From an uncultured Porphyromonadaceae bacterium (GTDB lineage: Bacteria; Bacteroidota; Bacteroidia; Bacteroidales; Muribaculaceae), in assembly GCA_947178215.1 (NCBI GenBank), contig CAMWXJ010000012.1, positions 26,134 to 90,133 on the forward strand: a stretch of 64,000 nucleotides of DNA, read 5' to 3'. Numbering within the stretch: position 1 is the stretch's first letter; the number at the start of each line of letters is the position of its first letter. Both the position numbers and the translations under genes were made by a program. Below the pieces are notes generated by a model. The model ran no database searches. It was given only the letters and a program-made list of their open reading frames with translations, and was not told the DNA's origin. Shown here piece by piece: positions 9,871 to 58,503 of the stretch.

Positions 9871-10670
9871 TTATATTTTTATTAAGTACATGACACAAAT
9901 TTGCAGTTCAGGCACGCCATCGGAGTTTTTCAGCATGGCTCCGGAATTCAGCTTTAAGGAGAAACAGCTTGTCGTAGACACGCTCCTGTCCGAGCTTGAG
10001 GCCGTGAAACAGATGCCATGCCCTGACATCTTCAGAGGACTTGGGATTACGCAGCAAAAAATTCTGCTTGATTCGCAGGTAGTATCGGATGCGCCTGTTG
10101 TTGAGATACTCGACCCATTCCTTTCCGACAAACTCGCGGTCGGCGACGAGGGAATCGATACACTCGGCACCGAACAGCCGTATAAATCTATCAATCATCC
10201 GTGTCCGCTCTTTCCAATTGGAATTGCCGCGCTTGTCAAGCATGGTAAAGAGCAGGGGAAATGCAACACCCTTGTATGTCACTCCAAGCATAAGGATATT
10301 GATGTTGACCTCGTCGAATTTCCAGTTGGTGCGGTCGAGGCTCAGAACAAGTCCTGTCTTGACTGGCAGAAGCGCAAATATCACTTTGGCGATAAGGTCA
10401 AGGTTGAGAGCATATCCGGCAAGAAATCTCTGCACTCGCCTCAAATTGGAATCACGTTCAACGCTCGTAGGCATTGCTGCCGCTATCTTGTGCAGACTGA
10501 CCGTCTGCACGACACAAAGGGCATGAAGAACAAATGCAAGCAATTTTATGCGAGCCAAATTCTTGCTAGCAAGCGCTTCGCGATGACATTACCGGGCCAA
10601 GATGCTCTTGCATAATCGGGACGATTTGATTAAATTTGTCGCAGTCTCTGGTAGTTGTCGTAACTTTCAT
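9871..10670 (-). pseudogene. IS4-type (DDE) transposase remnant, frameshifted and C-terminally truncated
   Basis: MKVTTTTRDCDKFNQIVPIMQEHLGPVMSSRSA (start at 10670), then a frameshift into ASKNLARIKLLAFVLHALCVVQTVSLHKIA; DDE-type segments LVLSLDRTNWKF and SLVADREFVGKEW; second frameshift near 9908 into GVPELQICVMYLIKI. Confidence 0.85.
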
Positions 10671-47000: not shown

Positions 47001-48665
47001 ATGAACCTACTTCCTTTCCTCCTGTTATTATTTCCGATGATTCTCGTCGGATGCTCCGACAGTCACGACCGGAGGCTTGAGTGCGTCAACGCAATGACGA
47101 TCACCGACACGCGAGGAGCACTGGCCGCGCTCGACAGTATCGACCCTGCCACCCTCGGCGAGGCCGACCGACACTTCCGCGACCTGCTCTCCGTCAAGGC
47201 CGCCGACAAGGAGTATGTCCGCCACACATCCGACTCCATCATCCTCGATGTGATCGATTACTACAGCAACGCCGGCGATGACACACTCTGCGCCGAAGCT
47301 TTTTACTACGGGGGACGGGTGTACAGCGACATGGGCGATTATCCCACGGCTCTGCGCTACTTCCAGAACGCACTCGACATCCTGCCGAAGAATACCCCAC
47401 AGCAATCTTTGCGCTCCTGCGTACTCAGTCAAACCGGACGTCTGCTCACTCAGATAAGGCTGAACGAGCAGGCCATCCCATATCTGAAAGAAGCCATCAG
47501 CATCGAATTAAACACCAAAGATTCTGTTGGACTGATGTGGGACTATGAATTATTAGGGTCTATCTATCTGCGTCTAAAAGACTACTCCAAAGCACAAGAA
47601 CTATATACTCAAGCTCGGAATCTGGCCAAAATAATTTCCCCGAAAGATATACCGGGAATAGAGATCAATCTGGCCATAACAAAATTGTATCAAGGCGACA
47701 ACAGCGGCGCCCTTAATCACATCCGTTCCAATGTTGGTAAGATAGATTCTCTTAGCCGTCGTTGGGCTTTGTCACTTGCCGCCAAGATATATCATGAGGC
47801 CGGTGTCATTGACACAGCTGCCATCTATGCTCGAGAGCTGATAAACGATACAACCGACTCCTATCAGATGAACGGCTACGACATCTTGCTCTCGCGGGAT
47901 ATGATCTCTACAGTTCCCCCGGATTCTATTGCGGCTTACACTTTGGACTTCCGTAAGGCCATGCTGCGGTATCTCCGCAGCAATTCGGAAACCGATGCCT
48001 TTATCCAAAACTCCATGTTCAATTACCAGAGTCATCTTCAGAAGCGTCTTGCCGCCGAGAAGTCCCGGTCACGGCTCGAAAGATGGATTACTGTCATCAT
48101 CATACTTTCATTGCTGATATGTGTCGCTTTTCTCTATATCCGGAAACGGAATATATGCAGAATCATGAATCTGAACACCCGCATTGAATCTCTAAACGAA
48201 GCCATAACAACACAAAGCAGCTCCAAGCTCGACCCGGATGTCTGCATGGATCTGAAAACACGTCTGATCTCCAATCTCAACAGTCTTAAGACCGGAAAGC
48301 TGAAGGAACCGGGAGTGCATCCTGACATTCTCAACTCCAAGACCATTGAAAAAATAAACAAACACATAGACAACAAAGAGAGTATCCCCGAAAACAGCGA
48401 CCTATGGAAAGAAATTGAAACGCTCGTTCTTGAACATTCCGCGAATTTCAAACTCAGTGTTCAGATTCTTAACGGCACCGCTTTGGATGACGTGAACTAC
48501 CGGTTTCTGCTGCTGCTCAAGTGCGGATTCACATCAAATAATATAGCGATATTGTGCGGAAGAGCCAAGAGCGCGTTGACTCCCCGCAGAAAAGGCTTGA
48601 GCAACCGCTTTTTCGGCCAGGAATTGAACGCAAAGGACTTCGGAGTTTTAATACGCTCGTTCTAA
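47001..48665 (+). CDS. Membrane-tethered TPR-type transcriptional regulator with divergent C-terminal HTH
   Basis: Lipobox LLFPMILVGCSDS; TPR repeats (DYPTALRYFQNALDIL, DYSKAQELYTQARNLAK); TM WITVIIILSLLICVAFLYI; C-terminal DVNYRFLLLLKCGFTSNNIAILCGRAKSALTPRRKGL. Confidence 0.75.
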   Translation: MNLLPFLLLLFPMILVGCSDSHDRRLECVNAMTITDTRGALAALDSIDPATLGEADRHFRDLLSVKAADKEYVRHTSDSIILDVIDYYSNAGDDTLCAEAFYYGGRVYSDMGDYPTALRYFQNALDILPKNTPQQSLRSCVLSQTGRLLTQIRLNEQAIPYLKEAISIELNTKDSVGLMWDYELLGSIYLRLKDYSKAQELYTQARNLAKIISPKDIPGIEINLAITKLYQGDNSGALNHIRSNVGKIDSLSRRWALSLAAKIYHEAGVIDTAAIYARELINDTTDSYQMNGYDILLSRDMISTVPPDSIAAYTLDFRKAMLRYLRSNSETDAFIQNSMFNYQSHLQKRLAAEKSRSRLERWITVIIILSLLICVAFLYIRKRNICRIMNLNTRIESLNEAITTQSSSKLDPDVCMDLKTRLISNLNSLKTGKLKEPGVHPDILNSKTIEKINKHIDNKESIPENSDLWKEIETLVLEHSANFKLSVQILNGTALDDVNYRFLLLLKCGFTSNNIAILCGRAKSALTPRRKGLSNRFFGQELNAKDFGVLIRSF

Positions 48666-48793: not shown

Positions 48794-49186
48794 ATGAGAA
48801 CATTCATCACACCACTGCTTCTCTCTCTTATGCTTCTGCTCGGTGCAGCCGCACAGGCCTCAGAACAGACATACACCGTGCCACTTGAGGAGTCATCTCC
48901 AACTGACACTGACCCTGATTATGTTGATGTAAGGGACAAAGGCCATCGGATGCCTCCCCGCCCTATAATCTGCGTCATCAGCGAGAACGAAGGCGTCACA
49001 ATTTCCACAGTAAGTGTGGAAGATATCGACACCTTTGAGCTTTACAATCAGAGCGGCACCTGCCTCGGCCGCTTTACCGAGGCCGACAGCTTTGTCACCG
49101 GTCTCTTTTCTATCAACGCCTCCACAGTCGAAATCCGATTCGTTACAGCCAACCATACTTACTATGGTTACCTCACCTTAAACTAA
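48794..49186 (+). CDS. Small secreted protein, DUF3244-like
   Basis: Signal MRTFITPLLLSLMLLLGAAAQA; C-terminal EIRFVTANHTYYGYLTLN. Confidence 0.6.
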   Translation: MRTFITPLLLSLMLLLGAAAQASEQTYTVPLEESSPTDTDPDYVDVRDKGHRMPPRPIICVISENEGVTISTVSVEDIDTFELYNQSGTCLGRFTEADSFVTGLFSINASTVEIRFVTANHTYYGYLTLN

Positions 49187-49282: not shown

Positions 49283-51655
49283 ATGTCAACTACTCCCAAA
49301 ATATCGGTTGCCATGTCCATGCGCAATGCCTCGCGCTTTCTGCGTGAGTGCATGGATAGTGTGCTGTCGCAGACATTCACCGACTTCGAGCTGCTTATCG
49401 TTGACGACGGCTCCACCGATGGCAGTGTCGACATCGTGCGTTCCTACTCCGACCCGCGCATACGTCTTATATGTCGTCCGCACGATTTCATAGAGTCGCT
49501 CAACACCCTGCTTGAGGAAGCCCGCGGTCAATATATCGCCCGCATGGACGCCGACGATGTCATGCTGCCCGACCGTCTGCAGGCGCAATACGATTATCTC
49601 ACCGGTCATCGGGAAGTGGCCGCAGTCTGCTCGCAGGCCGACAGGATTGACCAAACCGGAACCGTGATAGGCCGCATAGGCCACGGCGATGACATCATAC
49701 GTATTACGCCGCGCATGATGTGCGAGACAAATCATATCTGCAATCCTTCCACCATGATGCGGCGCGACATCGTCAGGGCATCAGGACTTCGCTATGAGCG
49801 CGAATATGAATTTGCCGAAGATTACCGCTTCTGGAGCCGCGTAGTGTCGGAGTGCGGACCGGTTGACTGCCTGCCGAAGCAACTGCTCAATTACCGCATA
49901 AGCGACACACAGGTCACGGCTACCCGGTGGGATGAGATGATGGAAGCGACCGACAGAGTAAAACGGGCACTGACCGACCGGTTGGTAAGCCTGGCCAATC
50001 CCGGCTACCATGACCCCGTGATACCTGAGAGCGACCGGCAGCTGTCGCTCATCATACCGTTCCTTAACGAAGGTGAGGAAGTGGAGCGTACCGTGAAGTC
50101 CTTCCTGGAACATGGCGGCGCCGGCAATGTCGACGTCATCGTAATCAACGACTGCTCCTACGATTCATATCCATACATGGAGTACCTTGTCGCAATCCCC
50201 GGAGTGAGCTACTTCCTGAACCGCGAGCGCCTCGGTGTGGCCGGCAGCCGCGACAAAGGCGTAGCACTGTGCCGCACACCCTACTTCCTGCTGCTCGACG
50301 CACACATGCGGGCCTACGACGATCTCTGGACCACAGAGATTCCGCGCCTGCTGCGCGAAAACGACCGCCGCATCCTCTGCTGCCAGACAAAATTTCTAAG
50401 AAAACTTTCCAATAATATCATTGAAGAGATCCCTGAAGCCCCAAAATCATTTGGCGCAAGACTTGTTTTTTCTACCAATACCCCAATCCCCAGCATTGAA
50501 TGGGTCAAATCTGAAAGAGACAAAACATCGCCAACAGAACGGATACAAGCTGTTTTAGGCGCAGGATATGCAACGAGTACCATATATTGGACTCATATTG
50601 ATGGGTTAAAAGGTCTTAAACAGTTTGGTTGTGACGAACAACTTATCTCGCTAAAAACATGGCTAGAGGGTGGCGAATGCCTTCTTATCAAAAATGTTGT
50701 TTTAGGGCATATCTATCGTGACTATATGCCATATTGCCTATCTCCTACGATTCTTACCTATAACCATCTCTTTATATCTGAAACTATATTCCCACTTAGA
50801 GTTCGTTGCAAAGCAAGAGCTATCGCCTATTGTACAGATAAAGCTAAATTCGAAATCGCTTATAATGAGCTCACAAAACATCTTACAACGCACCAAAACA
50901 GCATAATTATAGACGAGAACCGATTCTATAAAGTTATTTGTATTGATCGTATTGCTAATTCCCCCGAACAAGAACTTCAGAAAGCAATTAAAGAGCGTAT
51001 TGTGGACCTATCGTCTTATTTGACGTCGTTCAAACCAAATAATTGTGGCATAGTAACGGGAAAGATAGGATTGGCCATTTGGTTTTTACACTACTCTCAA
51101 TTTTCTCAAGAGCACCACTACAAAATAGTTGGCGAGAAACTAATTCGAGAAGTTTGCGAATCGTTGCCTTTGAATGACTTTTCTTTTGCAAATGGGCTCA
51201 CAGGTATATTATGGGGACTGACATATGTCGATCGTAACGAATTAGCGTGTGACTATACATCACAAATTAACGCAATTCGTCCATTGATCACAGACTATAT
51301 ATGTCGCCAGTCCCTTGCTGATTATTCTTTTTGCCAAGGAGCAGGTGGTATGTTAGCATATGCATGTTCGCAATATATGTATTACCAGCTACAATCACAG
51401 ATTTTTGAAAAATTAGATAGCATAGCCCACAAGACCATACTCCATGCGGTAGATGTCACAAGTGTATATTATGCGATGTTATGGCTAGAATTGCGTACCC
51501 ATACAGACATAGATATTGCCAAAACATCATTAAACCCTTTTCTAAGAGATTGGATAAAACCATCGAATTACATTCCATCTGATTTCCGTTTTTGGAAAAT
51601 ATCGCTTTTTGACGGTGTACTTGCCACTTCTATTAACTTCTTATTAAATCAATAA
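49283..51655 (+). CDS. Double GT2 glycosyltransferase with C-terminal LanC-like domain (RiPP-associated)
   Basis: GT2 #1 ISVAMSMRNASRFLRECMDSVLSQTFTDFELLIVDDGSTDGS, ARMDADDVMLPDRL; GT2 #2 LSLIIPFLNEGEEVERTVKSFLEHGGAGNVDVIVINDCSYDS, RLGVAGSRDKGVALCRTPYFLLLDAHMR; C-terminal GLAIWFLHYSQFSQ, FANGLTGILWGLTYV, YSFCQGAGGMLAYA. Confidence 0.75.
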   Translation: MSTTPKISVAMSMRNASRFLRECMDSVLSQTFTDFELLIVDDGSTDGSVDIVRSYSDPRIRLICRPHDFIESLNTLLEEARGQYIARMDADDVMLPDRLQAQYDYLTGHREVAAVCSQADRIDQTGTVIGRIGHGDDIIRITPRMMCETNHICNPSTMMRRDIVRASGLRYEREYEFAEDYRFWSRVVSECGPVDCLPKQLLNYRISDTQVTATRWDEMMEATDRVKRALTDRLVSLANPGYHDPVIPESDRQLSLIIPFLNEGEEVERTVKSFLEHGGAGNVDVIVINDCSYDSYPYMEYLVAIPGVSYFLNRERLGVAGSRDKGVALCRTPYFLLLDAHMRAYDDLWTTEIPRLLRENDRRILCCQTKFLRKLSNNIIEEIPEAPKSFGARLVFSTNTPIPSIEWVKSERDKTSPTERIQAVLGAGYATSTIYWTHIDGLKGLKQFGCDEQLISLKTWLEGGECLLIKNVVLGHIYRDYMPYCLSPTILTYNHLFISETIFPLRVRCKARAIAYCTDKAKFEIAYNELTKHLTTHQNSIIIDENRFYKVICIDRIANSPEQELQKAIKERIVDLSSYLTSFKPNNCGIVTGKIGLAIWFLHYSQFSQEHHYKIVGEKLIREVCESLPLNDFSFANGLTGILWGLTYVDRNELACDYTSQINAIRPLITDYICRQSLADYSFCQGAGGMLAYACSQYMYYQLQSQIFEKLDSIAHKTILHAVDVTSVYYAMLWLELRTHTDIDIAKTSLNPFLRDWIKPSNYIPSDFRFWKISLFDGVLATSINFLLNQ

Positions 51656-53051: not shown

Positions 53052-53324
53052 ATGAGTACGAATCTTAAGCTTAACAAGCTTTTTATTGAGCTTGAAAGCA
53101 TCCAAGAGACCTCTGAAGGTCTACTCCGTGGCGGATTTGCCGTCATGGGCGGAGAAACAGATGTTACTCCATTAGACTACAATGGCAACTGTGGAGAGAA
53201 CTGCAACTGCGGCAAAAACTGCGGCTGCACGAACGCCAATTGTGGCAAAAACTGCAATTGCGACCCGACAAGTCCCACCTCAGAAAAAAGTGGAGTCATA
53301 CCCGGCTTTACTCTTCCTTTCTGA
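53052..53324 (+). CDS. Candidate RiPP precursor peptide: GG leader plus Cys/Asn/Gly-rich core
   Basis: MSTNLKLNKLFIELESIQETSEGLLRGGFAVMGGETDVTPLDYNGNCGENCNCGKNCGCTNANCGKNCNCDPTSPTSEKSGVIPGFTLPF; LKLNKL-type leader, GG at 27-28 and 33-34, 8 Cys in C-X3-C-X-C-X3-C-X-C-X4-C-X3-C-X-C; directly 3' of radical SAM gene. Confidence 0.8.
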   Translation: MSTNLKLNKLFIELESIQETSEGLLRGGFAVMGGETDVTPLDYNGNCGENCNCGKNCGCTNANCGKNCNCDPTSPTSEKSGVIPGFTLPF

Positions 53325-53343
53325 CATCTAACCTCTCATCATT

Positions 53344-53376
53344 ATTCTCTGCCAGCACAAAAAGCTGGCAGAGAAT
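53344..53376 (+). terminator. 13-bp hairpin after precursor gene (attenuator/terminator)
   Basis: ATTCTCTGCCAGC (53344-53356) - ACAAAAA - GCTGGCAGAGAAT (53364-53376) followed by ATTAAAAA. Confidence 0.7.
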
Positions 53377-53396
53377 ATTAAAAATATCCATTAATT

Positions 53397-56315
53397 ATGC
53401 TACATTCCAATCTTTTACAGATAATCGTTAGTTGTCTTATAACATTTATCATCATAAGCCATAGCCCTGAAGATTGTATTGCCGAATCCAGAACACAATT
53501 TCCAGAACATATTGTCTCTGGTAAAATTATTAATTCCGTTACTGGACAATATTTACGAGATACAGTTAATATTGACATTATGACTCTTGACAGCACAGTC
53601 ATCATGCATTCTAAAGCTCGTATCTGGTATAAAAATTGGCCTGATGAATCAAGCATTGTATGCGATTACGAATTACCTGTTCATACCGATGGGAGTAACC
53701 TTATTATAAAACTAGCACATCCCGATTATGAAACTATTTATTACCGGATTAAATCTGATAAATTTCATAACGACAACGGATACTTGAAAATTCGTCGTCT
53801 AAGTCGTTTTGAAAAGAGTATAATGTTAGGAGAGGTAGCGGTACAGGCATCTATCGTGCAGTTTGTCAACAAGGGTGATACGATTTCATATAATGCTGAC
53901 GCCTTTCAGGTAGCACAAGGGTCGATGCTCGATGTGTTGCTCCAACAGATGCCGGGTGTAAAACTTAATGAGGGCCAAATCACTGTCAACGGTCGTTTTG
54001 TAGATAAGCTCATGCTCAATGGTAGCGATTTTTTTCAGGGCGATCAGCTTGTGTTGTTGCAGAATTTGCCGGCTTATACCGTCAAGAGTATCAATGTATA
54101 CGAGGAAGCGGGCGGCATAACCGAGGTACTTGGCAAAGCCGCCATGGATCTTAAAGACAGAGACAAGTATGTGATGGATGTCAGGCTCAAAAAAGGTTAC
54201 AATGCCGGATGGATCGCTAATGCAGAGGCCGGAGGCGGCACTCATGGACGTTATCGCGCACGTGCTTTCGGATCAGGATATACCCGTTCTATAGCGCTAT
54301 CGGCCTACGGATATCTCAACAACCTTAACGAAGACCGCACACCCGGTAATCAGGGGAGGTGGAACAGCGCAAACAATAGTCAAGGAATAACAGAGGCAAA
54401 GGGACTTGGCATAAGTTACTCATATAAATCACCTTCGCGTAACTTGGAAATCGCAGGTGATGCGGCAGCCCAGTATGGCAAAGAGAGGCTCGATAAAATC
54501 ATCAGCAGTCAGAACTTCCTTGTCGGCGGCGACACTTACAGCCGCCAATGGAGCAACCGCCTTAACCGAGACCTGATGCTGAGGACTAACCACAAGCTCG
54601 TATTGAGACCAAAAACAGGTAATGCCTATTACAACGAGCTTAGAGTCTATTTCAACAGAAATACCAACCGCGACCGTCAGAATGAGGTTAAGGGAGAATT
54701 TGCCGATAATCCCGACTCAATCGACGACCTCCGCAGAAAACTGATTGACGGATGGCTTGAACAGGGCAATCCGCTCAACCGCTATAATTATCTTCAGCAT
54801 ACCGATATAAAATCGACTTCCGTTCGCTGGAATCAATCGAGCACATTTGCTATCGGACGGTCATCGAACGGCATCACCATAAGCAGCGACGGATTTGTCA
54901 GAAACAATCATACAGATGGCGATGATAGCTACCTGTTGCAATATGCCGGCTCGGATCCCTCGCTGCGCAACCGCACCAATCCACGTAAGGGCCATTCTTA
55001 TCGTTATTGGATCGGGACACGCCTTACTTTCAGGCTTAATGCATGGCTGACCATAAATCCGTTTTACGCATTCTGTCATGAATATCATAACGATGACAAC
55101 CGGTGGTATATCGAAAACGCCGATGCGTCGAAGCTATTGCCCTCTATGCGATCCGAGACGATGATGCAACTTGACCCGCGCAACAGCTATTATACAAGAC
55201 GACACCACACTCACCATTATATTAGTCTTCCAATTGGATATTACCGTGAGATGCTAACAGATGGTCAAACAAATTCGAGCGTTTCGCTCCATTTTCAGCC
55301 GGGTATGAATATAATGACTCCCAAACTTTACTACCATGGTTGTGTTGATGAAGTCATAAGCCGAAAATATGTTACTCCTGAAGCTTACTTCGAATTCTTC
55401 TGGTTTCTCCCGGGGATGGCGCCACGTTTCAATTTAGAATACAAGATATTGAGTAAATCTATTGACTTGACCAATCTCGTCAATGTGACATACGACTCCG
55501 ATCCTCTCAATCTACGTATGGGAAATCCGGATCTGAAATACTCCTATACCCACCGTTTCGACGCCGGCTATCAGTCAGAAAAGTGGATTTTTGACCGACT
55601 ACTGGTCAACGCCTATCTCGCCGCTGAAATCTATGAGCGTCAGGTAGCCATGAGTTATGCCTATGACGAGGCTAAAGGTGTGCGTACTTACCGTCCTGTC
55701 AATGTCGATGGCAACCGCACCGGATGGTTCAGCCTCCAGACTGATCTGATGCTTGACCGACAGAAACGATTTAAATTTAGCAACTGGCTTTGGCTTCAGC
55801 CTGTAAGGAGTGTGGATATGGTTTCAACCGATGACTTTGCCTCCACCCAAGAAAATGTGGTCAACAGTTTCGTGGTACGCAACGATGCGAGCATCGAATA
55901 CAATCGGTCTGGCTATATGGTAGCCGTTGAAGGCGGCATCAATACACGTCGGGCCAGCTCGTCAAGCCTCGGTTTCGACCCGTTCCGAGTAACACGCTTC
56001 AACTATGGTATCCGCGGGCGTGCCGCTCTTCCGGGCGACTTCGAAATTTCAACTGATTTGAAGATGTACTCGACACGCGGATTCGATGACAGATCTATGA
56101 ACGTGAATCAGCTCGTATGGAATGCACGTATTACAAAGTCGATACTCAACAACTCTCTGATGTTTATTCTCGATGGCTACGATATGCTTGGAAGAATCAA
56201 GAATATAAGCTATAATGTCAACGCTCAGGGCCGTACAGAGACATGGGTCAACAATATTCCGAGCTACGTCATGCTCTCCCTGCGCTGGAACTTTGCCAAG
56301 AAGCCCAAAGAATAA
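53397..56315 (+). CDS. Outer-membrane beta-barrel, TonB-dependent-receptor-like (RiPP locus)
   Basis: Plug-like LGEVAVQASIVQFVNKGDTISYNADAFQVAQGSMLDVLLQQMPGVKLNEGQITVNGRFVDKLMLNGSDFF; long C-terminal barrel ending WNFAKKPKE. Confidence 0.8.
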   Translation: MLHSNLLQIIVSCLITFIIISHSPEDCIAESRTQFPEHIVSGKIINSVTGQYLRDTVNIDIMTLDSTVIMHSKARIWYKNWPDESSIVCDYELPVHTDGSNLIIKLAHPDYETIYYRIKSDKFHNDNGYLKIRRLSRFEKSIMLGEVAVQASIVQFVNKGDTISYNADAFQVAQGSMLDVLLQQMPGVKLNEGQITVNGRFVDKLMLNGSDFFQGDQLVLLQNLPAYTVKSINVYEEAGGITEVLGKAAMDLKDRDKYVMDVRLKKGYNAGWIANAEAGGGTHGRYRARAFGSGYTRSIALSAYGYLNNLNEDRTPGNQGRWNSANNSQGITEAKGLGISYSYKSPSRNLEIAGDAAAQYGKERLDKIISSQNFLVGGDTYSRQWSNRLNRDLMLRTNHKLVLRPKTGNAYYNELRVYFNRNTNRDRQNEVKGEFADNPDSIDDLRRKLIDGWLEQGNPLNRYNYLQHTDIKSTSVRWNQSSTFAIGRSSNGITISSDGFVRNNHTDGDDSYLLQYAGSDPSLRNRTNPRKGHSYRYWIGTRLTFRLNAWLTINPFYAFCHEYHNDDNRWYIENADASKLLPSMRSETMMQLDPRNSYYTRRHHTHHYISLPIGYYREMLTDGQTNSSVSLHFQPGMNIMTPKLYYHGCVDEVISRKYVTPEAYFEFFWFLPGMAPRFNLEYKILSKSIDLTNLVNVTYDSDPLNLRMGNPDLKYSYTHRFDAGYQSEKWIFDRLLVNAYLAAEIYERQVAMSYAYDEAKGVRTYRPVNVDGNRTGWFSLQTDLMLDRQKRFKFSNWLWLQPVRSVDMVSTDDFASTQENVVNSFVVRNDASIEYNRSGYMVAVEGGINTRRASSSSLGFDPFRVTRFNYGIRGRAALPGDFEISTDLKMYSTRGFDDRSMNVNQLVWNARITKSILNNSLMFILDGYDMLGRIKNISYNVNAQGRTETWVNNIPSYVMLSLRWNFAKKPKE

Positions 56316-56328
56316 GTCCTCACTGACT

Positions 56329-58503
56329 GTGAAATTCACACGGCAATACGACGCTATGGACTGTGGGCCGGCATGCGTACGCATGGTGGCCTCGGCCCAC
56401 GGCAAGCTCTTCCCCCTCCCTTGGTTACGCAGCCTCGCCTGCCTGACAAAGGAGGGGGTCAGCGTTGCCGGCATACGCCACGCACTCTCTGAGGTGAAGA
56501 TGGAGAGCGCCGCCTTCCGCATGACTCCCTACGAACTGGCCAACAAATGTCCGCTACCGGCAATCCTGCACTGGAACCAAAACCACTTTGTGGTACTCGA
56601 AGGGGTGCGTCAGCGCCGGGGGCGCCGTGTATGGCGCATAGCCGATCCGGCTTTCGGCCAATATGAGGCCACCGACGACGACCTGACCGCGCACTGGCTT
56701 GCCGGCGACAAGGGGGTGGTGGTGGCCGCAGAGCCGGGCGAAGGCTTCGGAGAGCAGCGTCCGCCCCGTGAGGCCCACAGCTTCATGGACTTTGCCAGGG
56801 AACATGTGTGGCCCTACCGCGCCGAGATGGTCAAGTCGGCGTTGGTGATGTTTGCCGGGCTGCTGCTGTCGCTCGTCTTGCCTTATCTAACCCAGGCGAT
56901 GGTCGACAAAGGGATAGGAGCCGGAGACACCAACCTGATATTCGCCATACTGCTCGCTCAGCTCGCCATCGTGGCCGGATCGTTTATCATACAGCTCATC
57001 GGCAACAGGGTGACTCTCTATATGAGCACACACATATCCATAAGCATTATCACGTCGTATCTGACCAAGCTGTTGCGGCTACCGATAACATTTTTCGACA
57101 CCAAGAGTGCAGGCGACTACCGCCAGCGCATAGCCGACCACACGCGACTGCAAGATTTTCTCACCATAGGATCGCTACAGACACTGTTTTCACTAATATC
57201 GGTGCCGTTTTATCTCGCTATAATAGGCACTTACAATCTTGTGGTACTGGCGGCCTACATTGTGTTTACGGCGCTGTCGGTGTGGTGGTCGGCGACATTT
57301 TTCAAGCGGCGACGGGTGCTCGACTTCGAGCAGTTTCAGCTCAACGCCCTGGCTCAGAATCGTATGTATGAGATGACAAGCGGCATTGTCGATATCAAGG
57401 TCAACGGCTTTGAGCAATACAAGATCGACCAGTGGCGTAAGGTGCAGCAGCAACAATATGGCATGTCGCTACGCGTGATGAAGCTCGACCAGAAGCAAAA
57501 CGCCGGGTTCATGGCCATCGGCCAGGCCCGCAACCTGTTTATCATGTGCTGGATTGCACTCCTTGTGGTCGACGGACGCATGACGCTCGGCATGATGATG
57601 AGCGTGAGCGTGATCATAGGCATGGTCACGGGCCCGCTCGGGCAGCTCGTCGACTTCCTGCGCCGTGTGCAGGATGCTCGCATAAGCCTCGAGCGTAGCG
57701 ATGAAGTGCGTATGGCCGACGATGAGGACAGCCCCGGCATGGCCGCGGTCGACCCGTCGCGGCCGATGGATATCGAGCTGCGCGGAGTGACGTTTGCCTA
57801 CGGCGGACGCCTCGGTAAGCCCGCGGTGAGCGACATCACCTTCACCATCCCGGCAGGCTCATTCGTGGCCATAGTGGGCGAAAGCGGCAGCGGCAAGACT
57901 ACGCTCATGAAGCTACTGCTGAAATTTTACGAACCGCAGGAGGGAAATATCATGCTCGGCGGACGCCCCATCGGCGACTACAGCGCGGCCTCGCTCCGCA
58001 GCGCATGCGGTATCGTGTCGCAGGACAACTTCGTGTTTTCCGACACGATAGAGCGCAACATAGTGCTCGGGGGCGAATATGACGCCGAGCGGCTGGCCGA
58101 AGCCGTCGACACAGCATGCCTGGCCGATGTGGCCAAGGCGCGGCCATTGGGACTGCACACCAAGATAGGAGCCGAGGGGGAGGGACTGAGCGGCGGAGAG
58201 CGACAGCGCGTCATGATGGCCCGAGTGGCCTACAAGCGACCACCTTACATCATGCTCGACGAAGCGACATCCAATCTTGACGCGCAGACAGAGCAGCGTA
58301 TCACCGACAATATCGCCCGCCGCTTTGCCGGAGCCACACGCATAGTCATCGCCCACCGTCTGAGCACCGTACGCGACGCCGACCTCATAATCGTGATGCG
58401 CGGCGGACGGGTGGTCGAGACCGGCACACATCAGTCGCTCGTCGATGCCCGGGGGTACTACTACGAACTCATACACAACCAGCTCGACCTGCCCGCGGTA
58501 TAA
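56329..58503 (+). CDS. Peptidase C39-containing ABC transporter (PCAT, bacteriocin/RiPP exporter)
   Basis: GTG start; C39 motif KFTRQYDAMDCGPACVRMVA, His region [84 protein letters not shown]. Confidence 0.95.
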   Translation: MKFTRQYDAMDCGPACVRMVASAHGKLFPLPWLRSLACLTKEGVSVAGIRHALSEVKMESAAFRMTPYELANKCPLPAILHWNQNHFVVLEGVRQRRGRRVWRIADPAFGQYEATDDDLTAHWLAGDKGVVVAAEPGEGFGEQRPPREAHSFMDFAREHVWPYRAEMVKSALVMFAGLLLSLVLPYLTQAMVDKGIGAGDTNLIFAILLAQLAIVAGSFIIQLIGNRVTLYMSTHISISIITSYLTKLLRLPITFFDTKSAGDYRQRIADHTRLQDFLTIGSLQTLFSLISVPFYLAIIGTYNLVVLAAYIVFTALSVWWSATFFKRRRVLDFEQFQLNALAQNRMYEMTSGIVDIKVNGFEQYKIDQWRKVQQQQYGMSLRVMKLDQKQNAGFMAIGQARNLFIMCWIALLVVDGRMTLGMMMSVSVIIGMVTGPLGQLVDFLRRVQDARISLERSDEVRMADDEDSPGMAAVDPSRPMDIELRGVTFAYGGRLGKPAVSDITFTIPAGSFVAIVGESGSGKTTLMKLLLKFYEPQEGNIMLGGRPIGDYSAASLRSACGIVSQDNFVFSDTIERNIVLGGEYDAERLAEAVDTACLADVAKARPLGLHTKIGAEGEGLSGGERQRVMMARVAYKRPPYIMLDEATSNLDAQTEQRITDNIARRFAGATRIVIAHRLSTVRDADLIIVMRGGRVVETGTHQSLVDARGYYYELIHNQLDLPAV

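Follow-up and report, generated by a model that had tools for sequence, protein, structure and literature searches.

A candidate glycosylated, ranthipeptide-like RiPP precursor with five Asn-x-x-Cys motifs in a gut Bacteroidales operon

The window analysed here is a 64,000-nucleotide stretch of DNA that corresponds to positions 26134-90133 of contig 12 in a 2.55 Mb assembly of 48 contigs. Judging by its named relatives, the genome probably belongs to Muribaculaceae (order Bacteroidales). It carries, in this order, genes for a TPR protein, a small protein with a signal-like start, a fusion protein, a radical SAM (rSAM)/SPASM enzyme, a cysteine-rich precursor peptide, an outer-membrane barrel protein and a C39 exporter. 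These features, their parts and the related loci in other genomes are collected in Table 1.

Table 1. Features of the operon, with window positions, and loci elsewhere that carry the operon gene set in whole or part
Feature	Position	Strand	Remarks
TPR protein, probable regulator	47001..48665	+	Weak BT3442-family match; also adjoins two related clusters
Small protein, signal-like start	48794..49186	+	Homologue in L197; similar-looking one in L130
Tri-domain fusion, 790 aa	49283..51655	+	GT2 / GalNAc-transferase-like / LanC-like
GT2 domain, aa 1-220	49283..49942	+	DAD motif at 89-91
Polypeptide-GalNAc-transferase-like domain, aa 258-500	50054..50782	+	D339-A-H341 and H476
LanC-like C-terminal part, aa 580-790	51020..51652	+	LANC_like match, E 1.5e-8
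Radical SAM/SPASM peptide maturase, 439 aa	51666..52985	+	Profile matches, alignment, structure model
RiPP precursor peptide	53052..53324	+	90 aa plus stop; translation and homologues in synteny
Leader, aa 1-28	53052..53135	+	Ends in family-wide LxGG(F) double-glycine motif
Second GG, aa 33-34	53148..53153	+	Only some homologues have one
Cys core, aa 44-70	53181..53261	+	Five NxxC motifs; C51, C57, C68 spare
Tail, aa 71-90	53262..53321	+	Ser/Thr/Pro linker DPTSPTSEKSG, hydrophobic end ...LPF; predicted glycosylation region
RNA hairpin just 3' of precursor stop	53343..53377	+	Strong; folding energy of the entire 72-nt gap -24.5 kcal/mol, z -9
Outer-membrane beta-barrel protein	53397..56315	+	Same-operon homologues match PF14905
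C39 peptidase-containing ABC exporter (PCAT)	56329..58503	+	Probable GTG start 56329; listed ORF begins 56215
L189			Genome G132; operon gene set
L190-L194			Genome G080, five contigs; operon gene set
L195			Genome G157; operon gene set; rSAM read as two ORFs
L059			Prevotella sp. MGM2; gene set, altered gene order
L060			Bacteroidaceae STF2_127; gene set; contig cut or gene shortened at fusion

Retranslation of the precursor gene returned, letter for letter, the 90-residue sequence given by the first-pass annotation, whose eight cysteines, their spacing and the double glycines at residues 27-28 and 33-34 also proved exact. The cysteines occupy positions 47, 51, 53, 57, 59, 64, 68 and 70, a span of 24 residues with the spacing X3-X-X3-X-X4-X3-X (steps of 4, 2, 4, 2, 5, 4 and 2). 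The peptide belongs to no family in Pfam or NCBIfam, its relatives gave no match above cutoff where this was tried, and the literature searched contained no published NCGxNC peptides. The source genome contains three matches to a degenerate DNA pattern for NCGxNCxC; of 393 other genomes of the order, only 17 contain a match, and each of these has just one. The rarity of this pattern, together with homologous precursors that lie next to homologous rSAM genes in the corresponding place in other genomes, argues that the cysteine pattern is not a product of chance.

The exporter gene probably starts directly 3' of the barrel gene, and the barrel protein itself has no sequence match in the PDB. According to a study of Bacteroidales clusters (PMC10352776), a C39 exporter and an outer-membrane protein without a gene for a membrane fusion protein is a layout found in several of them. 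The small protein with a signal-like start (48794-49186 in the window; L197:5823-6233; L130:7969-8352) is encoded, in several clusters, upstream of either the precursor gene or the fusion gene. The G+C content of the window drops from ~0.57 to 0.33-0.40 in the interval from 50.5 to 54 kb, and the maturase-precursor segment may thus be a late arrival; a plasmid search returned no close copy. Five other loci also have hairpins (z -3 to -7) in the gap between the precursor and barrel genes, although their sequences are unrelated, and no Rfam RNA element matched. The hairpin might be a device that lifts the level of precursor mRNA above that of the genes behind it.

Protein searches with the 90-residue peptide found few and weak relatives in the family, and the rSAM protein was the productive query instead. 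The rSAM search (297 genomes of the family) yielded 80 loci from the Bacteroidota of the genome collection. Most of them have a C39 exporter and, adjoining the rSAM gene, at least one small ORF that combines an LxGGF-type leader with a Cys-rich core. The nearest relative of the window rSAM protein is 41% identical. Nine loci from five further genomes (Muribaculaceae, Prevotella and Bacteroidaceae) have the fusion/rSAM/precursor/barrel set, whole or in part, usually with a C39 exporter alongside. The distribution is patchy, with the full fusion in only four of the 297 family genomes (the source genome, G132, G080 and G157). In the rSAM tree the window protein and its G132 counterpart form a strongly supported pair, next to a weakly supported group that contains the remaining rSAM proteins of this kind. 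The peptides of this operon form a scattered and previously unnamed family.

Other arrangements were seen around related rSAM genes. In L138, L094, L084 and other loci, 5 to 10 paralogous LxGGF Cys-rich precursors lie upstream of one rSAM gene; these arrays come from Flavobacteriaceae, Saprospiraceae and Chitinophaga, and gave no NCBIfam match above cutoff where tried. Precursors with five N(N/D)CxC-type repeats occur upstream of a related rSAM gene in two short loci, L044 and L045 (G281 and G057). GCGC-rich precursors are located beside an rSAM gene and a separate or truncated GalNAc-transferase-like ORF in L196:8943-9185 and 10349-10633 (G113) and in L200:682-894 (G047), and by eye their cysteines fall off the NxxC rule described below.

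The hallmarks of a RiPP precursor are present in the window, namely a conserved double-glycine leader, an adjacent C39 exporter and a modifying enzyme in synteny. The identification of the ORF as a precursor peptide is backed by synteny with the rSAM gene, the glycosyltransferase (GT) fusion, the barrel gene and the exporter gene, and we consider it near certain from these comparisons that the peptide is a RiPP precursor. The dense CxC and CxxxC cysteines, taken alone, would suit metal binding, and the product could be imagined as an unprocessed, metallothionein-like protein with free thiols. However, such a protein would hardly account for a conserved double-glycine leader or for conserved synteny with the rSAM enzyme, GT fusion, C39 exporter and barrel, and the homologous core of L190 has evenly spaced NxxC motifs with no CxC at all. 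We regard this explanation as barely credible.

C39 exporters cut their substrates after a double glycine. Two such sites, GG28 and GG34, had been put forward for the window peptide. The LxGGF motif that contains the first is found in 10 of 10 operon-type precursors, whereas the second is missing from several homologues (L190, L192, L193 and L194). Because of this difference in conservation, the predicted cut after G28 is favoured over one after G34. The calculated monoisotopic mass of the unmodified core would be 6364.64 for a cut after G28 and 5802.39 for a cut after G34.

The NCGxNCxC repeat noted previously is present in the window peptide, but comparison with homologues reveals that the family does not conserve this repeat as such. 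The conserved signal is instead an Asn three residues before Cys, which is kept across different cysteine spacings. When the non-Cys letters of ten cores were shuffled with the cysteines fixed, Asn was found at -3 of 50 of 77 cysteines against 21.1 expected (z 8.1), an excess that draws on the homologues, five of which come from one genome, and is weak in the window peptide alone (5 vs 2.9, p 0.08). The residue at -3 depends on the class of cysteine. It is N in 13 and D in 2 of 15 cases for the second Cys of a CxC pair, N in 37 and D in 3 of 47 for a lone Cys, and N in none and D in 1 of 15 for the first Cys of a pair (Fisher 2e-9). Excluding the first Cys of each CxC pair, Asn or Asp stands at -3 of 55 of 62 cysteines despite the differing Cys spacing among loci. 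The rule holds with cysteines 5 or 6 residues apart as well as in CxC pairs, and so is not a by-product of a single repeat length.

Asn is also enriched at +3 (33 vs 21), in part because of a six-residue periodicity. A CxxN rule with the acceptor downstream was considered and rejected, as the +3 excess is absent from NCxC-type peptides whereas the -3 signal holds in both types. Relatives in the same family that lack the GT likewise have an excess of Asn at -3 (35 vs 15.9, z 6.1), and in other Bacteroidota the excess is spread over -3 to -5. In the window peptide the motifs are N44-C47, N50-C53, N56-C59, N61-C64 and N67-C70, and each of the spare cysteines C51, C57 and C68 has G at -3.

The maturase carries the core cluster cysteines C100-C104-C107 and SPASM cysteines at 324, 343, 382, 385, 391, 395 and 408, all of which are invariant in 32 homologues. 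Its structure model (pLDDT 90) has N-terminal strands and helices (aa 1-84) that resemble an RRE, and the closest PDB fold is CteB, a thioether-forming maturase. The assignment of this enzyme as the partner of the precursor is supported by synteny. The locus has an rSAM/SPASM maturase gene adjoining a Cys-rich precursor, as expected for a ranthipeptide, and an Asn-x-x-Cys motif conserved in the core, as expected for an NxxC RaS-RiPP. However, the maturase scores 143 bits against a cutoff of 525 for TIGR04463, its best NCBIfam maturase model, 133 against 600 for CefB (NF038107), where the precursor spacing is also not Cys-every-fifth, and 103 against 340 for PapB (NF047865). No NxxC-named NCBIfam model is among its best 25 matches, and three of its relatives likewise fall below every curated NCBIfam cutoff. 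With scores this far below every cutoff, the reaction of the maturase cannot be read from its family.

Thioether rings in the product are likely from these features. Links from cysteines to alpha-carbons had been suggested for this enzyme, and thioether formation remains the expected chemistry, but C-beta links of the ranthipeptide, NxxC type are predicted to fit better because of the Asn or Asp at -3 of nearly every cysteine outside the first position of CxC. A known example is NxxcA, in which Cys23 is joined to Asn20 by a C-beta thioether (PMC8326336; PMC13361665); in freyrasin the counterpart is Asp, in the opposite direction and with Cys-X3-Asp spacing (PMC8172795). A sactipeptide with links to the alpha-carbons of other residues, in a hairpin or small-ring topology, would keep the same leader and export and perhaps the glycosylation, and would suit a SPASM maturase of thioether-forming fold. 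Thurincin H and ruminococcin C are indeed known to use Asn for links at C-alpha (PMC8172795). However, acceptor side chains in sactipeptides are varied, whereas the fixed -3 position found here has the strictness of side chain and spacing seen in NxxcA (Asn) and freyrasin (Asp), and a sactipeptide is unlikely. For rings of the NxxC C-beta type we see about even odds. The corresponding prediction for the window peptide, from position statistics rather than enzyme family membership, would be five N-x-x-C rings and a shift of -10 Da.

The glycosyltransferase proposed as a second partner of the precursor is supported by synteny, and its C-terminus includes a LanC-like domain that was absent from the first-pass annotation. 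Its second GT domain is homologous to several polypeptide GalNAc-transferases, GALNT10 among them (6e-13), and in the alignment D339-A-H341 and H476 fall on the DxH...H residues of GALNT10/GALNT1. An AlphaFold model of the fusion made from three sequences (pLDDT 37) was unusable. The LanC-like part, of ~205 aa, covers only positions 2-138 of the 350 in LANC_like and lacks the zinc-ligand CH motif and the full-length LanC toroid. Owing to its size and lack of zinc ligands, it is probably not a cyclase and more likely a platform that holds the substrate. A lanthipeptide variant, in which this part would close lanthionine rings, could appeal to the LANC_like match, but the same shortcomings weigh against it, as does the lack of a dehydratase among the genes examined around the cluster; we give this reading almost no weight. 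PMC10352776 likewise reports no LanB dehydratase gene from the genomes that it screened.

Both Ser/Thr and Cys had been named as possible sites of glycosylation. The resemblance of one of the two presumed GT2 domains to polypeptide GalNAc-transferases favours Ser/Thr of the tail as the predicted sites over Cys, and we rate O-glycosylation of the tail as somewhat better than even on homology grounds. The tail after the last Cys has a median of 17 residues at GT loci versus 4 elsewhere (p 4e-6), with 5 versus 0.9 Ser/Thr (p 6e-4) and a hydrophobic last residue in 11 of 12 versus 29 of 119 cases; these comparisons ignore common descent and are not independent evidence, because the rSAM genes that go with a GT fall into only one or two adjacent clades. 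Plainly mucin-like tails are found in L193 (TPTPEPTPTPPPVTTTTT) and L060 (TTTPTASPTPSSSGSG). Against the tail pattern, the Thr/Pro stretch of L059 and L195 precedes the last Cys. Two loci with a barrel but no GT, L125 and L130, lack the long tail, which suggests, in small numbers, that the tail tracks the GT rather than the barrel. L189, the only homologue with a broken GT triad (NPH; LRKLSD), could serve as a natural control; its tail has one Ser and no Thr.

A glycocin-like product, with the GT domains acting on C51, C57 and C68, the other cysteines in disulfides and the rSAM enzyme otherwise employed, would explain why three cysteines per peptide are outside the NxxC rule. The first GT2 domain does match the SunS S-glycosyltransferase, albeit weakly (24 bits vs a cutoff of 350), and PMC10352776 counts peptide S-glycosyltransferase domains beside rSAM/LanC genes in other Bacteroidales. 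Yet L190 and L060 keep the fusion enzyme without having CxC pairs, and the second GT domain is GalNAc-transferase-like, a type that O-glycosylates, which makes this a quite improbable alternative to tail O-glycosylation.

The fusion gene also bears on how the clusters might diversify. Among the five paralogous loci of G080, its first 260-500 bp share ~90-97% DNA identity before a sharp drop; the first 100 aa of the encoded proteins are 88-100% identical and the following sequence 32-64%. The window fusion shares 75-85% of residues with those of G080 at the start and 13-34% just behind. The G080 contigs break off within the shared 5' segment, as they would in a tandem array of exchangeable cassettes. 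In G267, from the genus of the window's organism, two 129-aa GT2 fragments (L198:7360-8551 and L199:5605-6910) show 79% identity with the beginning of the window fusion and are directly followed by pieces of a barrel gene, with no rSAM or precursor gene there. By sequence these loci appear to be a decayed or emptied cassette. Exchange of cassettes downstream of a common 5' segment of this gene would explain both the conserved start with sharp divergence behind it and the G267 copies.

Taken together, the features shown here (a conserved operon, its leader motif, the NxxC rule and the homologies of the GT domains) are consistent with a glycosylated ranthipeptide-like RiPP precursor, and we assign this overall model a probability of about 0.5. 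The rSAM/SPASM enzyme would grip the leader through its N-terminal RRE-like part and link every Cys preceded by Asn at -3 to that residue's beta-carbon, so that as many as five N-x-x-C thioether rings of four residues each would form one after another (about -10 Da in all). C51, C57 and C68 might persist as thiols, form disulfides or act as minor sites. With the LanC-like part holding the substrate as a platform, the GalNAc-transferase-like domain could add HexNAc or hexose to Ser/Thr of the tail linker, and the N-terminal GT2 domain could extend this sugar. Judging from family rules, the C39 exporter would then cut after G28 and pass the peptide to the periplasm, where the outer-membrane barrel would either carry it out or serve as its receptor.

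Peptides of this kind are usually expected to act in antagonism or signalling among gut Bacteroidales. More tentatively, the operon might represent a new gut-Bacteroidales RiPP subclass that combines tandem Asn-Cys C-beta rings with mucin-type O-glycosylation, is made by an rSAM and a three-part enzyme, is secreted through a C39/barrel route and is diversified by exchanging cassettes with a common 5' start of the fusion gene. If so, the product would be a glycosylated ranthipeptide-type peptide with several tandem NxxC rings, neither of which was found in the literature searched, and the -3 Asn rule would make ring positions predictable across the whole family. The operon would also provide a GalNAc-transferase-like enzyme from bacteria whose substrate is small and defined, and would give a use to the zinc-less LanC-like proteins that have puzzled Bacteroidales genome miners.

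Several known systems resemble parts of this one. The Bacteroidales clusters of PMC10352776 share zinc-motif-less LanC-like proteins, double-glycine leaders, a PCAT with an outer-membrane protein and an occasional GT. However, those clusters are described with LanC-like and GT genes as accessories and with pseudo-rSAM, and the accessible text describes no GT-GT-LanC fusion, GalNAc-transferase-like domain or NxxC core. The polypeptide GalNAc-transferases (CAZy GT27, eukaryotic GALNTs) share catalytic-domain homology with the DxH...H residues, whereas the window domain is bacterial, is fused to GT2 and LanC-like parts and has no lectin domain that we could see; no published pairing of a GalNAc-transferase with an rSAM RiPP was found in the literature searched.

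Among rSAM systems, CefA/CefB ('Cys-every-fifth') and TIGR04463 ('rSAM vs C-rich') provide the maturase models that score best, though far below curated cutoffs, with the rSAM of the window and with its relatives; CefA weakly matches the L059 precursor but not that of the window. Freyrasin (PapA/PapB) likewise has several C-beta thioethers from Cys to acid side-chain residues in one peptide, although the PapA acceptor lies downstream in Cys-X3-Asp and the Asn here lies upstream. NxxcA/NxxcB, the Streptococcus orisratti RaS-RiPP and ranthipeptide, shares with the window system the Asn-x-x-Cys spacing, an rSAM maturase and, by prediction, an upstream Asn acceptor (PMC8326336, PMC13361665). NxxcA has one ring, whereas the window peptide has five tandem NxxC motifs, and the window system adds a double-glycine leader, a glycosyltransferase fusion and an outer-membrane partner.
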